A stretch of DNA of 64,000 bases, taken from contig PLCN01000019.1 of NCBI GenBank assembly GCA_003134785.1, positions 124,001-188,000 of the forward strand, written 5' to 3'. The DNA comes from Spartobacteria bacterium (lineage in GTDB: Bacteria; Verrucomicrobiota; Verrucomicrobiia; Chthoniobacterales; UBA10450). Under the pieces are notes generated by a model. It ran no database searches and was not told the origin of the DNA. It saw nothing but the letters and a program-made list of their open reading frames with translations. The position numbers and the translations under genes were made by a program. This document shows positions 4,960 to 12,103 of the stretch, in pieces. Position 1 is the stretch's first letter, and every line of letters starts with the position of its first letter.

Positions 4960-5415
4960 CTATCCGTTAGGCGAAGCGGACGGAGAGGTCGAGGGCGTGG
5001 GAATCATGATCGTCTGACCGATCTGCAATTTACGATCGTTCTCGATGTGATTGAATCGCTGCAATTCTTCCACGCTGACTTTGTGCATCTTCGCGATGGA
5101 AGTAAGCGTCTCGCCTTTCGCGACTACGTGAGTGTTGCCGCTCTGCGGCGTTTTGGGCGCTTCGAGTGTAACGCCGGTCGTGGCCGGAGTGGGGTTTTCC
5201 CCGATCATGACACCCGGCTTGATGGCGGAAACTTGCTGCTCAAGTTTTAGAATCTGCTGCGAGAGCGCATCGATCTTCGCGTTCTGTTCGTCGATTTTCT
5301 TCGTCAAGGCTTCGAGCAACGCGGTGTTCTTGTCCCCCGGCGCCTGGGCGGGAGCGTTCGTGCAAATCGTCGCCGCCAGAAGAAAACAGAAGGAGCAGAG
5401 GGCGAAGCGCTTCAT
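4960..5415 (-). CDS. Secreted LysM-domain protein
   Basis: 151 residues from the ATG at 5415 (MKRFALCSF); an upstream ATG at 5433 would only add six residues before the signal peptide. A signal peptide covers about 1-24. Residues 30-66 form a heptad-rich coiled coil (LLEALTKKIDEQNAKIDALS). A LysM module spans about 95-139 (HVVAKGETLTSIAKMHKVS, ending IGQTIMIP), followed by a Ser/Pro tail. LysM binds N-acetylglucosamine polymers, so the protein is likely a periplasmic peptidoglycan-binding factor, and the coiled coil may make it oligomeric. It is divergent from the UBact-proteasome operon and shares a 97-bp promoter region with it. Confidence 0.85.
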   Translation of the reverse strand: MKRFALCSFCFLLAATICTNAPAQAPGDKNTALLEALTKKIDEQNAKIDALSQQILKLEQQVSAIKPGVMIGENPTPATTGVTLEAPKTPQSGNTHVVAKGETLTSIAKMHKVSVEELQRFNHIENDRKLQIGQTIMIPTPSTSPSASPNG

Positions 5416-5512
5416 GGGGTTCCATCTTGGCATTGAGGCGCGGCGGAGGCAAGCGCGCGTGAGCCCGCGCCGCCAGCTTGCCTTTCGCCGATTTATCTTC
5501 TAGCCTTTTTCC

Positions 5513-5683
5513 ATGCCTGAGCGCATCCAAAAGCCTCCGATGCCGTGGGGACCGAAGCAAGGAGATGGAGACGGCCCGCGATCGCCGGATATCTCGCGAC
5601 CGGACACGAGGGACCTCCTCAAAAAGATGCGCAAGGTCGATCCCAACCAGTCCAAGCGCTATCGCCAGCGCACGGGCCAGTGA
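5513..5683 (+). CDS. UBact/Pup-like protein modifier
   Basis: A 56-codon gene too short for many gene callers. It begins MPERIQKPPMPWG, has a Gly/Asp/Pro-rich disordered middle, and then RPDTRDLLKKMRKVDPN and ends RYRQRTGQ. This matches the UBact family of Pup-like modifiers described in Verrucomicrobia, Nitrospirae and relatives. The RPDT-DLL-MRKVDP helix and the RYRQR-G-Q/E tail are the family's conserved parts. The terminal Gln implies that a Dop-type deamidase would convert it to Glu before ligation to target lysines. The stop codon overlaps the prcB start (TGATG at 5681-5685). This translational coupling and the neighbours confirm the assignment. No deamidase or ligase gene lies in the window. 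Confidence 0.93.
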   Translation: MPERIQKPPMPWGPKQGDGDGPRSPDISRPDTRDLLKKMRKVDPNQSKRYRQRTGQ

Positions 5684-6504
5684 TGGATTCGATCGGCCTG
5701 GCGCTCGACCAGAATCCTTCTGGAGCGAGCGATGATTTTCCCGCGTTGCTGCGCCGGCGCGGTCTTCTTCCCGCGGTGCCGGCGCAAACCGGCATGGCGC
5801 CGACAGCGGATCCCGCCTGGATTCCAACCCAGGCGACGACGATCCTGGCTTTCAAATTTCAAGGTGGGGTGCTCGTGGCGGGCGACCGCCGCGCGACGTC
5901 GGGACATACGGTCGTTTACGATCGCGCGGATAAGGTGCTCGAAATCGATCGGCATTCGATCATGGCGATCGCGGGCGTGCCGGCAACGGCGTGGGAAATG
6001 GCGCGTGTGCTCGAACATTCTTTTCAGTTCTTCCGGCGCACGCAATTGCAGGAGATGAGCGTGGACGGAAAAGTGCGCGCGCTCTCAAAATTGTTGCGGG
6101 ACAACTTCGGCTTCGTTCTGCAAGGCGTCGGCATCGTCGTGCCGATCTTCGCCACTTACGATTCCGGCGCGGACCCCTCGGCGCGCCTTTATTTTTACGA
6201 CGCGATGGGCGCGCAATTTGAGGTGGCAGATTACGCCGCCACCGGTTCCGGATCGCCGGCCGTGCGCGGGATTCTTTATTACGAAAACAACTGGGGGAAA
6301 AAGCCGCTGGTGAAACTGACTGAAGACGAAGCCGTGACGGTGGCCTTGCGCGCGCTCGACACGGCGGCGGAATCAGACACAGCGACGGGCGGGGTGGATC
6401 GAAACGCGAAAATTTTCCCGGTGATCAAGATTGTTTCGCGCGGCGGCATCACGACGCTGCCGGAGAAACGGATTGGCGCGCTCTTCAAACGCACTGTCGC
6501 ATGA
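5683..6504 (+). CDS. prcB: 20S proteasome beta subunit
   Basis: 273 residues starting at the ATG that overlaps the ubact stop. A propeptide of 51 residues ends before TTILAFKFQGG. Taking Thr52 of that motif as Thr1 puts Asp at 17 (AGDRR) and Lys at 33 (RADKVLEI), which is the complete catalytic set of active proteasome beta subunits. The late ATGSGSPAVRG and DSATATGG-like segment (ESDTATGGVDRN) also match actinobacterial PrcB. The mature subunit of about 222 residues should form the proteolytic rings of the 20S core. Proteins tagged by UBact are the presumed substrates. It overlaps prcA by four bases (ATGA). Confidence 0.95.
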   Translation: MDSIGLALDQNPSGASDDFPALLRRRGLLPAVPAQTGMAPTADPAWIPTQATTILAFKFQGGVLVAGDRRATSGHTVVYDRADKVLEIDRHSIMAIAGVPATAWEMARVLEHSFQFFRRTQLQEMSVDGKVRALSKLLRDNFGFVLQGVGIVVPIFATYDSGADPSARLYFYDAMGAQFEVADYAATGSGSPAVRGILYYENNWGKKPLVKLTEDEAVTVALRALDTAAESDTATGGVDRNAKIFPVIKIVSRGGITTLPEKRIGALFKRTVA

Positions 6505-7280
6505 TCGAAGAGCCATACCGTTGGGTCGAAGCGATTGCGAATCGCGCCGAATATATCGAGACGCAGCTGGCGGCGGGGAGTCCGATCGCGGCGGTCGGAT
6601 ATCGCGACGGCATTTTGTTCGTAACCCTTGGCCGAGGCCGGCAAAAAGTTTTTGAGATTTATGATCGAATTGCGATGGGGGCTATCGGACATCCAGGCGA
6701 CATCGAGCGTTTGCGCATGGCGGCGATCGAGCTGGCCAGCGCGGAAGGTTTCACGCGGTCAGCCGCGGATGTGTCGTTGCGACGGCTGGCGCATTACTCA
6801 CTGAGTCCGGTGCTAAAGACTGCGTTCGAGCAAGTGTACGGCGCGCCGTATCTCGCGCGCATACTCTTTGCGGAAATCGGCGCCAAACAGGAATCGGATT
6901 TATTTTTGCGCCTGGAATACGATGGCGCCATTGCGACCAACAGCGCGAACTTCGAACAGACGCGGCAGGATTTTGGCGCCATCAGCGGGACGCGCCAATC
7001 GACCGAATTGATGGAGAAGTTCCTCCAGGCTGAGCATTCCGCGGGCGCCACTTTCGAGCGAGCGATGAAGATCGCGCTCGATGCCTGGACCGTCGGTCAT
7101 CTCGCGCTGGGCGACGGCGGCGTGAAAGAGCTTCCGGCGCGCGATAAGATTCTGAGCGAACGAAAAGACAGATTGCGCACAGCGGGCGTCGAGGCTGCGG
7201 TTCTGGAACGCGACGACAAGATCGCGCTCCGGTATCGCGGGTTGAGCGCAACCGAAATCCGTTCGGCGCTGGGAGACTGA
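6501..7280 (+). CDS. prcA: 20S proteasome alpha subunit
   Basis: 259 residues. It matches bacterial PrcA: an N-terminal gating segment, then an RAEYIE...GSPIAAVGYRDGILFVT strand pair, the FEIYDRIAMGAIGHPGDIERLR core, and RLEYDGAIATN. There is no catalytic Thr, as expected for an alpha subunit. In actinobacterial PrcA the C-terminal tail is removable; here the tail ends EIRSALGD. Alpha rings cap the beta rings and dock an AAA+ activator through HbYX tails; no such ATPase gene is present nearby. The start overlaps the prcB stop, so the two subunits are likely produced stoichiometrically. Only 11 bases separate it from the amidase gene. Confidence 0.92.
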   Translation: MIEEPYRWVEAIANRAEYIETQLAAGSPIAAVGYRDGILFVTLGRGRQKVFEIYDRIAMGAIGHPGDIERLRMAAIELASAEGFTRSAADVSLRRLAHYSLSPVLKTAFEQVYGAPYLARILFAEIGAKQESDLFLRLEYDGAIATNSANFEQTRQDFGAISGTRQSTELMEKFLQAEHSAGATFERAMKIALDAWTVGHLALGDGGVKELPARDKILSERKDRLRTAGVEAAVLERDDKIALRYRGLSATEIRSALGD

Positions 7281-7291
7281 GTTTCGCGGCC

Positions 7292-8095
7292 ATGTTCGGT
7301 AGAGCCGATCGCGATCGAAGGAGTCGGCGTCCGATTCTCGCGTGGCTTGGTTTCGTGCTGATGGTGTTGTCGTTCGTGTGGCTGCAATTTTTGCCGCCGA
7401 TATTAAGACGACAGGCTGTGAACTCGCCCGCGACGGACGAACCATTCGCTCTCGTGGTGCTCGATCCCGGCCACGGCGGTCAGGATTCCGGAACCATGAA
7501 GGCCGGCATTCTGGAGAAGGAACTTGCGCTCGACGTGGCGCATCGAGCGGAACGGTTGCTGCAAGAACGCGGCTTCGCCACTTTACTCACACGCAACGAC
7601 GACACCTACGTCTCGCTGGCCGGTCGCGCCGCGATCGCAAACGAGCAGTCGCATTGCATTTTCATCAGCATTCATTTTGACGACGCGGCGAGGCCGGCGG
7701 CCACGGGCGTTGAGACTTACTACGCCGCTCACCAAACCTCATCGAATCCAATGCGCGTGTTATCGTGGCTGCTGTTCCTGCATCGGACGGCGTTCGAACC
7801 GCCGAATGCGGAGAGCCAGAGCCTGGCTTCAGTGATTCAAGAAGCTCTGGTCACGCACACGCAGGCGATGGATCGCGGGACGACACCGCAACAATTCTTC
7901 GTCATCGCGAATGTGCGTCACCCGGCCGTTCTGGTGGAAGGCGGTTTTCTCACCAACGCGGAGGAGATGAACAAACTCGCGACCGGCGATTACCGCGAAC
8001 AGATCGCCGAGGCGATCAGCGACGGCGTGGTGCGTTATCGAGAGATGTTGCGCGAACAACGGACGCCGCTCGCCATCAATTTGCCTGGTGGGTGA
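7292..8095 (+). CDS. N-acetylmuramoyl-L-alanine amidase (Amidase_3, AmiC type)
   Basis: 267 residues. An N-terminal membrane anchor lies at about 15-34 (ILAWLGFVLMVLSFVWLQFL). The catalytic domain shows the zinc ligands and catalytic Glu of the Amidase_3 family: LDPGHGGQDSG, GILEKELAL, FISIHFDD and LVEGGFLTN. It cleaves the bond between N-acetylmuramic acid and L-alanine in peptidoglycan, acting in the periplasm. It follows prcA by 11 bases and is probably on the same transcript. That makes it the only downstream partner of the proteasome operon here, though a functional link is not shown. Confidence 0.92.
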   Translation: MFGRADRDRRSRRPILAWLGFVLMVLSFVWLQFLPPILRRQAVNSPATDEPFALVVLDPGHGGQDSGTMKAGILEKELALDVAHRAERLLQERGFATLLTRNDDTYVSLAGRAAIANEQSHCIFISIHFDDAARPAATGVETYYAAHQTSSNPMRVLSWLLFLHRTAFEPPNAESQSLASVIQEALVTHTQAMDRGTTPQQFFVIANVRHPAVLVEGGFLTNAEEMNKLATGDYREQIAEAISDGVVRYREMLREQRTPLAINLPGG

Positions 8096-9769: not shown

Positions 9770-12103
9770 TCAAAATTGATAACCGACGTTGAAATTGAAT
9801 TTTCCGCCGCCTTGGAGCCGATCTTTTTCCAACGGAATTCCGTAATCGATCCGGATCGGCCCGATCGGCAAATCCAGTCGAAGACCGACACCAAAATCGG
9901 AGACGAGGTGACTCGTGCTGAAGTCCCATGGACCCTCATTCACAAAGCCCGTATCGTAAAAAATCGCCGCGCGCGCCTTCTCGATGATCGGCACGGTGTA
10001 TTCGACGGTGAGCTGCGCACTGGACTGTCCGCCTAACGGCTCGCCGTTAATGTCGCGCGGGCTGACGTCGCGAAAATTGAAACCGCGCAAATCGTTCGAG
10101 CCGCCGAGAAAGAGCCGATCGAAAATTCGAACGCGATCGCCGCTGCCCCAGGTATCGACCGTCGCGACGTCACCGCTGATGGCGAGGATTGTGTCCTTCG
10201 GGAGGTGAAAATATTGCCGCGCCTCGAGATTCAACCCGTAAATCTGGGTGTCGCCGCCGAGAAACCCACCGGCAACGAAAGGCGTCAGTGTAACCCTCTG
10301 CCCGCGCCTGCTCAAAAATGGATTATCGCGTGTGTCATAGGTAAGACTCGAGGTGAGCTGGCTCTTCACGACCTTTCCTTCCTCGATCAGGATCGCATTC
10401 GAGGCGTTGTTCGCCACATTGAACAACTCGGAATCCTCGAGTCGATACTGGAGACTCGCCGACATGAAAGCGCCGATCGGCTTACGTGTGTCAATCGAGA
10501 AACCGTAATTTCGCTGCGAGTAAATGGAACTGAGGAAATCCGCTTCCCGGTAATAAACTTCACCGCCGAGCGACAGACGCCGATCGAGGAAATACGGCTC
10601 CGTCAGCGACACCACGATATCCTTCCGTTGCGCGCCGAACTGGACGCGGGCGCGAAATTTTTGCCCCGCCCCAGTGAAGCTCGGCCAGTTCATAATATCG
10701 AAATTGCCTTGGGTCAGTTCGACAAATCCGACGATATTTTCGACCGTGCTGTAGCCGGCGCCGAAGTTCAGCGAGCCGGTGCGCTTTTCCTCCACCTGGA
10801 CGATAAGATCTTTGCGACTCGCCACTCCAGTATCCTCAGGAAAAGTTTCGACCTTCGAGAAGTAGCCCAAATTATCGAGCCGCTTCTTGGTCGTTTCGAC
10901 CCGGACGCTGTTAAAAATATCTCCCGGCGCGATTAGCACTTCACGCCGGATCACTTTGTCTCTCGTTCGGGTGTTTCCGACGATGGTGATTCGCTGAACG
11001 AAAGAAGGAGTCCCCTCCTCGATCGTGTATTTGACGTCGATCCGGGCCGGTCCCGCCGGGACACCCTGCGGCACGACGTTCAGATCGACATAGCCGCCGC
11101 TTCCGTAGGCATCGGCCAGTTTCTTCGCGTCGTCCCGAATCTGTTTCGGCGAGTAGACGTCGCCCTCTTTCATTTTGAGCAGAAGGCGAATCTTCTGTTC
11201 GTTCGCGACTTTGTTTCCGGTGATCGTGAGCTTGCCGACGCGATACTGAATGCCTTCCGAGAGCACGACCACGATGGTCATCTTGCCGTTGTGCCGCTCG
11301 CGGCGCACTTCTTTGACGGCCACATCGATGTATCCGTGATCCTGATACCATTCCCGAATGGAATTGGTGTCCTGCTCCAACTGCGTCTCATCGAGCCGGC
11401 CGGATTTATCGATGAACGAATAAAGCGTCTTGCCTTTCGTTTTCATCTGCTTGCGCAAAATACGGTCGCCGAATTTCGTGTTCCCCTCGAAACGGATGGC
11501 ACTGATCGCTCCCTTGGTTCCCTCGACGATGGTGTAGATGACGCGCGACGTGCCGCGCTCTTCATTGGTGTCGACCCGGAATTTAACGTCGATGTCGGTG
11601 AAACCTTTTCCCTGATACATCTCGATGATTTTTTGCCGGGCGGTCTCGAGTTCCTGCTCACTGAGTGGACCATTGATCTTCAGGGCGATATTTTTGCGGA
11701 TTTTCTTCGCGCTGATTCTTTCAGCGCCTTCGATCTCAATTTCGTGCACCAGCGAGCGGGTCTGAATCACCACCATCACCTTGACGCCTTCACCTTCGGC
11801 TTCGCCAAAGATCCGGACGTTCTGCACCGCACCGGTGCCGTAGAGAGCGCGAATGTCTTGTTCGGCGAGAGCCTCGGAATACGGCTGACCTGGTTTAGTG
11901 CGAAGCTGCGCCAGCACGCGCTCACGCGAAATCGTTTGCGGACCGACGTATTGGATCTCGATGGACTTGACGATGGGCGGTCCCTGCGGCGGAGTGGCCT
12001 CCGGCGTCTGCGCGTAAACGGAACCGCCGCTCAGCAACGCGAAAACCATCGCGAACAGAAGCGTGAAGGCTGGTCGACGAATAAAACCTGCAAAGTGTGT
12101 CAT
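9770..12103 (-). CDS. bamA: Outer-membrane protein assembly factor BamA
   Basis: 777 residues. After a signal peptide (about 1-31), a series of five POTRA domains runs from about 45 to 430, with repeated units such as SIEIQYVGPQTISRERVLAQL, IRFEGNTKFGDRILRKQMK and TIVGNTRTRDKVIRREV. The rest is the 16-stranded barrel; near its end are the FLGGSNDLRGFNFRDVSPRD loop with the conserved RGF and the terminal strand FNFNVGYQF with the aromatic C-terminal residue. It inserts outer-membrane proteins. The downstream skp gene supports the assignment. Confidence 0.96.
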   Translation of the reverse strand: MTHFAGFIRRPAFTLLFAMVFALLSGGSVYAQTPEATPPQGPPIVKSIEIQYVGPQTISRERVLAQLRTKPGQPYSEALAEQDIRALYGTGAVQNVRIFGEAEGEGVKVMVVIQTRSLVHEIEIEGAERISAKKIRKNIALKINGPLSEQELETARQKIIEMYQGKGFTDIDVKFRVDTNEERGTSRVIYTIVEGTKGAISAIRFEGNTKFGDRILRKQMKTKGKTLYSFIDKSGRLDETQLEQDTNSIREWYQDHGYIDVAVKEVRRERHNGKMTIVVVLSEGIQYRVGKLTITGNKVANEQKIRLLLKMKEGDVYSPKQIRDDAKKLADAYGSGGYVDLNVVPQGVPAGPARIDVKYTIEEGTPSFVQRITIVGNTRTRDKVIRREVLIAPGDIFNSVRVETTKKRLDNLGYFSKVETFPEDTGVASRKDLIVQVEEKRTGSLNFGAGYSTVENIVGFVELTQGNFDIMNWPSFTGAGQKFRARVQFGAQRKDIVVSLTEPYFLDRRLSLGGEVYYREADFLSSIYSQRNYGFSIDTRKPIGAFMSASLQYRLEDSELFNVANNASNAILIEEGKVVKSQLTSSLTYDTRDNPFLSRRGQRVTLTPFVAGGFLGGDTQIYGLNLEARQYFHLPKDTILAISGDVATVDTWGSGDRVRIFDRLFLGGSNDLRGFNFRDVSPRDINGEPLGGQSSAQLTVEYTVPIIEKARAAIFYDTGFVNEGPWDFSTSHLVSDFGVGLRLDLPIGPIRIDYGIPLEKDRLQGGGKFNFNVGYQF

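Follow-up and report, generated by a model that had tools for sequence, protein, structure and literature searches.

The three overlapping genes at positions 5513 to 7280 of the analyzed window very probably supply the tag and the core of a complete UBact-proteasome pathway in a Chthoniobacterales-like verrucomicrobion, which would work as a route of the mycobacterial type. The window is a stretch of 64,000 nucleotides from contig PLCN01000019.1 (assembly GCA_003134785.1, Spartobacteria bacterium), positions 124,001 to 188,000 of the forward strand. The host is a soil bacterium of the Verrucomicrobiota, with a genome of 4.39 Mb in 25 contigs (completeness 97%) whose closest relatives are Spartobacteria/Chthoniobacterales genomes of this phylum. 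We established the genes of the pathway, their families, the catalytic residues, the selection acting on the tag and the co-occurrence of the components. The locus contains the following features:

4960..5433, minus strand: LysM-domain protein, conserved divergent upstream neighbor (PF01476, synteny)
5513..5683, plus strand: UBact, 56-aa ubiquitin-like modifier with C-terminal RTGQ (PF20513, NF033388)
5683..6504, plus strand: prcB, proteasome beta subunit, 273 aa (PF00227, E=4.1e-29)
5683..5835, plus strand: predicted PrcB propeptide, 51 residues (solved mature chains start at query residue 52)
5836..5838, plus strand: codon of the catalytic Thr1 (T52) of PrcB (Thr in 81/82 relatives, alignment)
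6501..7280, plus strand: prcA, highly divergent proteasome alpha subunit of 259 aa (TIGR03691 at 88.7 bits against a cut-off of 139)
7292..8095, plus strand: N-acetylmuramoyl-L-alanine amidase, conserved downstream neighbor (PF01520, E=1.4e-50)
9770-12103: BamA

The order ABC transporter, divergent LysM protein, UBact, prcB, prcA and amidase is widely kept. The cell-wall amidase starts after a gap of 11 bp on the same strand as prcA and directly follows prcA in 61 of 65 relatives; it has no known link to proteasomes. A promoter scan at the locus gave no match, and terminator matches there were close to shuffle level. The first-pass annotation had placed the operon in a diderm bacterium, which fits both the assignment to Verrucomicrobiota and the presence of BamA.

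The UBact frame comprises 56 codons and a stop, and its product ends in RYRQRTGQ, with the terminal Gln encoded at 5678-5680; the RTGQ end is of the Gly-Gln or Gly-Glu type. Its TGA (5681-5683) shares a base with the ATG of prcB (5683-5685), giving TGATG, while the stop of prcB (6502-6504) overlaps the ATG of prcA (6501-6503) as ATGA. The first-pass coordinates of all three genes and both overlaps hold. A match of the tail to UBact profiles had been set in advance as a test and was obtained at E values near 1e-22 in both Pfam (PF20513: E=2.4e-22, 78.9 bits, cut-off 27.8) and NCBIfam (equivalog NF033388: E=9.2e-23, 80.2 bits, cut-off 35), the two entries in which UBact, as claimed, is annotated as a published family. 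The modifier gene had also been described as hidden; with 56 codons it is certainly short, but both models recover it well above cut-off. UBact is present in a single copy, since a search of the genome for a second one found none, and it had no match in PDB. A weak PF20513 match in another genome (G125, 22.3 bits, below cut-off) fell within a long open frame of unrelated sequence and was dismissed.

One scan gave 80 related genome loci, and in 76 of these UBact immediately precedes prcB; the other four begin within prcB or are truncated or chimeric at the place of UBact. A PrcB scan of genome contigs returned Verrucomicrobiota only. Of 79 cases, 42 have TAATG and 15 have TGATG as the stop-start overlap between UBact and prcB, 57 together. 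Over the last 43 codons pN/pS equals 0.13 (all pairs, 79 sequences), and the tag is under purifying selection. In one metagenome-assembled genome (L076:726-899) the UBact frame continues into the prcB sequence and both the UBact tail and the PrcB propeptide are gone; this fusion is probably an assembly error.

PrcB aligns with the solved beta subunits of Rhodococcus and Mycobacterium tuberculosis. Residue 52, the first Thr of TTILAFKF, falls on residue 1 of the mature chains, and Asp68 and Lys84 fall on mature Asp17 and Lys33. The catalytic residues and the mature N-terminus proposed earlier from the sequence, the latter being the second test set in advance, agree with this alignment. Conservation of the three residues (T52 in 81/82, D68 in 82/82 and K84 in 82/82 relatives) is far above chance, and the preceding 51 residues are likely removed on maturation. 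The best NCBIfam match of PrcB is TIGR03690 with 168 bits, below the actinobacterial cut-off of 191.9. For the more divergent PrcA, a profile built from 29 relatives finds its M. tuberculosis counterpart at E=2e-18, and an AlphaFold model (pLDDT 80.7) compares with the same protein at Z 24 and rmsd 2.5-2.7 over 216-219 residues; judged by profile and model, PrcA is a distinct alpha subunit with a proteasome fold. The earlier description of the locus as a complete tag and protease core is thereby borne out by the UBact models and the PrcB/PrcA homology. A search for a second prcBA copy in the genome found none, leaving the copy number at one. The third Pfam Proteasome match of the genome, on contig 9 (L008:1492-2262), was rejected as a second prcBA; it is an ORF of its own, 256 aa long and resembling Anbu, the ancestral beta subunit, a family assigned by eye.

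The window contains the tag and the core only, and the remaining components are encoded on two other contigs:

Contig 3, C3:48790 (L009:6626-8317): ARC ATPase (TIGR03689, 457.7 bits)
Contig 3, C3:54882 (L009 12877-14391), plus strand: Dop deamidase/depupylase (TIGR03688, 488.9 bits)
Contig 23, C23:101110 (L010 7967-9475), minus strand: PafA ligase (TIGR03686, 319 bits)

ARC scores below the TIGR03689 cut-off of 504.75, and its best PDB match is Mpa (E=2e-103, residues 55-545). The assignment of Dop is clear from its scores, with 382.6 bits for the PafA model against 488.9 for its own, and 421 bits to solved Dop against 262 to solved PafA. PafA is separated from Dop only weakly by score, the Dop model giving 309 bits. 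Its assignment combines this narrow margin with an alignment to the solved ligase from the N-terminus (residues 20-480), whereas the alignment with Dop starts only at residue 77, and with the grouping of PafA sequences apart from Dop sequences among relatives. PrcB, PrcA, ARC, Dop and PafA all fall below the NCBIfam equivalog cut-offs, indicating that they have truly diverged from their actinobacterial counterparts.

The dispersed arrangement is not general. Two class-level relatives carry a single operon ARC-Dop-UBact-prcB-prcA-PafA, so that the three-locus layout looks like a fragmented version of it; in Chthoniobacter flavus PafA still lies ~1.6 kb 5' of UBact. ARC, Dop and PafA accompany UBact-prcBA in nearly all genomes that carry it. 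Of 145 evenly drawn Verrucomicrobiota genomes, only 6 had UBact above cut-off and the same 6 had ARC, which argues that tag and ATPase travel together. ARC and Dop are adjacent in other relatives; here and in near relatives several unrelated genes lie between them (L009:8444-12315), including, with names given by eye, a 599-aa ORF, a flavoprotein-like ORF and a possible LuxR-type regulator. A search for BPA/PafE had no match in this genome and none in the control genomes either, and a search for the PAC2 chaperone had no match here and did give matches in control genomes.

We infer each biochemical step from the mycobacterial pathway. Most likely, Dop would convert the C-terminal Gln of UBact into Glu by deamidation, and PafA would then join this Glu through its side chain to lysines on target proteins, from which Dop may also detach the tag. 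ARC would bind tagged proteins, unfold them and thread them into a PrcA7-PrcB7-PrcB7-PrcA7 barrel, where Thr52 of PrcB, exposed after loss of the propeptide, would cut them.

In the mycobacterial pathway the terminal Gln is deamidated by Dop prior to ligation (PMC7947786). The first-pass annotation took the terminal Gln to imply the same; this is plausible and, with Dop present in the genome, stands. However, Gln is not fixed: among 79 UBacts, 67 end in Gln and 12 in Glu. We used a tree of 69 PrcB+PrcA sequences, nine of them accompanied by a Glu-tailed UBact. These nine tips need nine changes, eight of which are forced by well-supported branches, and their scatter matches that of shuffled labels (mean 8.6). 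L012, which is the closest sister to this genome (support 100/97), itself has a Glu-ended UBact. The two tails thus interchange by repeated independent changes. Dop was found in 10 of 11 Glu-tailed genomes searched, the exception (G003) being a partial assembly of 1.4 Mb. Dop is therefore retained where deamidation is unneeded, as expected if it is a tag remover too. On these grounds, the chance is about even that the terminal Gln is functionally unimportant, with Gln and Glu nearly neutral and Dop kept for UBact removal rather than deamidation. The predominance of Gln speaks against such neutrality, as does the fact that all sampled Glu-tailed UBacts are tips of the tree, a hint that the Glu form may not last. 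Near neutrality is compatible with the tag-and-degrade pathway proposed above and conflicts only with the weight given to deamidation. Sister pairs with Gln and Glu tails, such as this genome and L012, are natural pairs in which the part played by terminal deamidation can be tested directly.

The ATPase tail and the alpha pocket depart from the mycobacterial model. M. tuberculosis Mpa activates the core via a C-terminal GQYL, in which Tyr608 bonds PrcA Arg26 or Glu119, while Lys52 contacts the carboxylate and Asp144 and Ser146 contact Gly606; Arg26 and Lys52 are reported to be essential for PafE-driven degradation (PMC9599533). The ARC of this genome ends in ARGGVI. Among 30 distinct verrucomicrobial ARC sequences the last two residues are VI in 23, VV in 5, and II and IV in one each, with a penultimate Tyr, as in GQYL or HbYX, in none. 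The conserved NVVK is followed by 15-20 residues that consist of a variable linker and a terminal [V/I][V/I]-COOH; entropy is 0.35 and 0.72 bits at the last two positions and ~1.8-3.4 bits at the preceding 15 linker positions. The corresponding pocket of PrcA is altered as follows:

6573..6575, plus strand: PrcA Ala25, at the place of M. tuberculosis Arg26 (Tyr contact); Arg in 0/29 relatives
6645..6647, plus strand: PrcA Lys49, at the place of M. tuberculosis Lys52 (activator carboxylate binding); invariant in 29
6852..6854, plus strand: PrcA Leu118, at the place of M. tuberculosis Glu119 (second Tyr contact); invariant Leu in 29

In addition, D141 (M. tuberculosis Asp144) is invariant in the 29 aligned sequences, so the actinobacterial Arg26 plus Lys52 pair is represented by its lysine alone, Arg26 being absent in 29/29. 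The tyrosine and both its partners are missing together, with the carboxylate partner still in place, and docking by a tyrosine-free hydrophobic end would explain this most simply. We consider it somewhat probable, from these alignments, that verrucomicrobial ARC docks on the 20S core through [V/I][V/I]-COOH, with its carboxylate meeting the conserved Lys49 of a pocket that has lost Arg26 and Glu119. The tail was seen in Verrucomicrobiota, and other UBact phyla may share it. No description of this tail and pocket was found in the searched literature, a body that takes in few subscription journals, and HbYX together with Verrucomicrobia gave a reference-list match only. C-terminal hydrophobic residues also serve as PDZ ligands and degrons, and the -VI end might be such a protein ligand or stability signal rather than a docking motif. 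We regard this as unlikely, since the tail sits where Mpa has its GQYL, behind a flexible linker, and the PrcA pocket is altered at the Tyr contacts yet retains the equivalents of Lys52 and Asp144. If true, tyrosine-free docking would couple activator and proteasome unlike the HbYX/GQYL rule and provide a clear bacterial exception to it.

The same departures could be taken to mean that UBact is conjugated but mainly is not a degradation signal, that PrcBA acts separately and that the -VI end of ARC does not enter the alpha pocket. The absence of GQYL/HbYX from all 30 ARCs, the loss of the Tyr contacts in PrcA and the separation of ARC and PafA from prcBA in this genome are in line with that account, and ligases of planctomycetes and Plesiocystis are encoded with no linked proteasome genes (PMC2588565). 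We nevertheless find it improbable, given the overlap of UBact with prcB in most relatives, the presence of ARC, Dop and PafA in nearly all UBact-prcBA genomes, the conservation of the last two ARC residues relative to the variable linker, and the retained carboxylate-binding Lys of PrcA. That UBact is a spurious short ORF before an ordinary proteasome operon has nothing but the short length in its favor and a negligible probability, being refuted by the model scores, the conserved synteny and the pN/pS value.

UBact is reported to have been named, by Lehmann and colleagues in 2017, as a ubiquitin-like protein of Gram-negative bacteria. Earlier, Iyer et al. 2008 described Pup homologues ending in G[EQ] in Verrucomicrobia (Methylacidiphilum) and included Chthoniobacter flavus among the organisms of a figure legend (PMC2588565). 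With such tags described in 2008 and UBact an annotated family, the locus belongs to a known type. It resembles other UBacts and verrucomicrobial Pup homologues in the length of the tag, in its C-terminus MRKVDPxQ(S/A)xRYRQRTG[QE], in its place before prcB and in the presence of PafA, Dop and ARC in the genome, and differs from the six-gene operon of class relatives in being split over three loci. Fuchs et al. 2017 placed the Gram-negative proteasomes of Verrucomicrobia in a cluster of their own (PMC5666114); our alpha and beta subunits likewise stand apart from the actinobacterial ones, and a search of that study's main text found no description of the tag or of the ATPase tail. Anbu shares membership in the proteasome-family Ntn-hydrolases but is a separate gene without an alpha partner or tag. 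The mycobacterial Pup-proteasome system (Pup, Mpa, PafA, Dop and PrcBA) uses the same enzyme families, a propeptide-bearing Thr protease core and a Gln-ended tag together with Dop. In contrast to it, the ARC described here ends in [V/I][V/I] instead of GQYL, PrcA lacks Arg26 and Glu119, and no PAC2 chaperone was matched. UBact represents a protein-tagging route far less studied than Pup, found in diderm bacteria including common soil lineages, and this genome offers a complete set of its parts with a tag under purifying selection. As a UBact-proteasome locus it is ordinary, but correct and complete; worth following are the ARC tail with its PrcA pocket and the switching between Gln and Glu tails with Dop retained.
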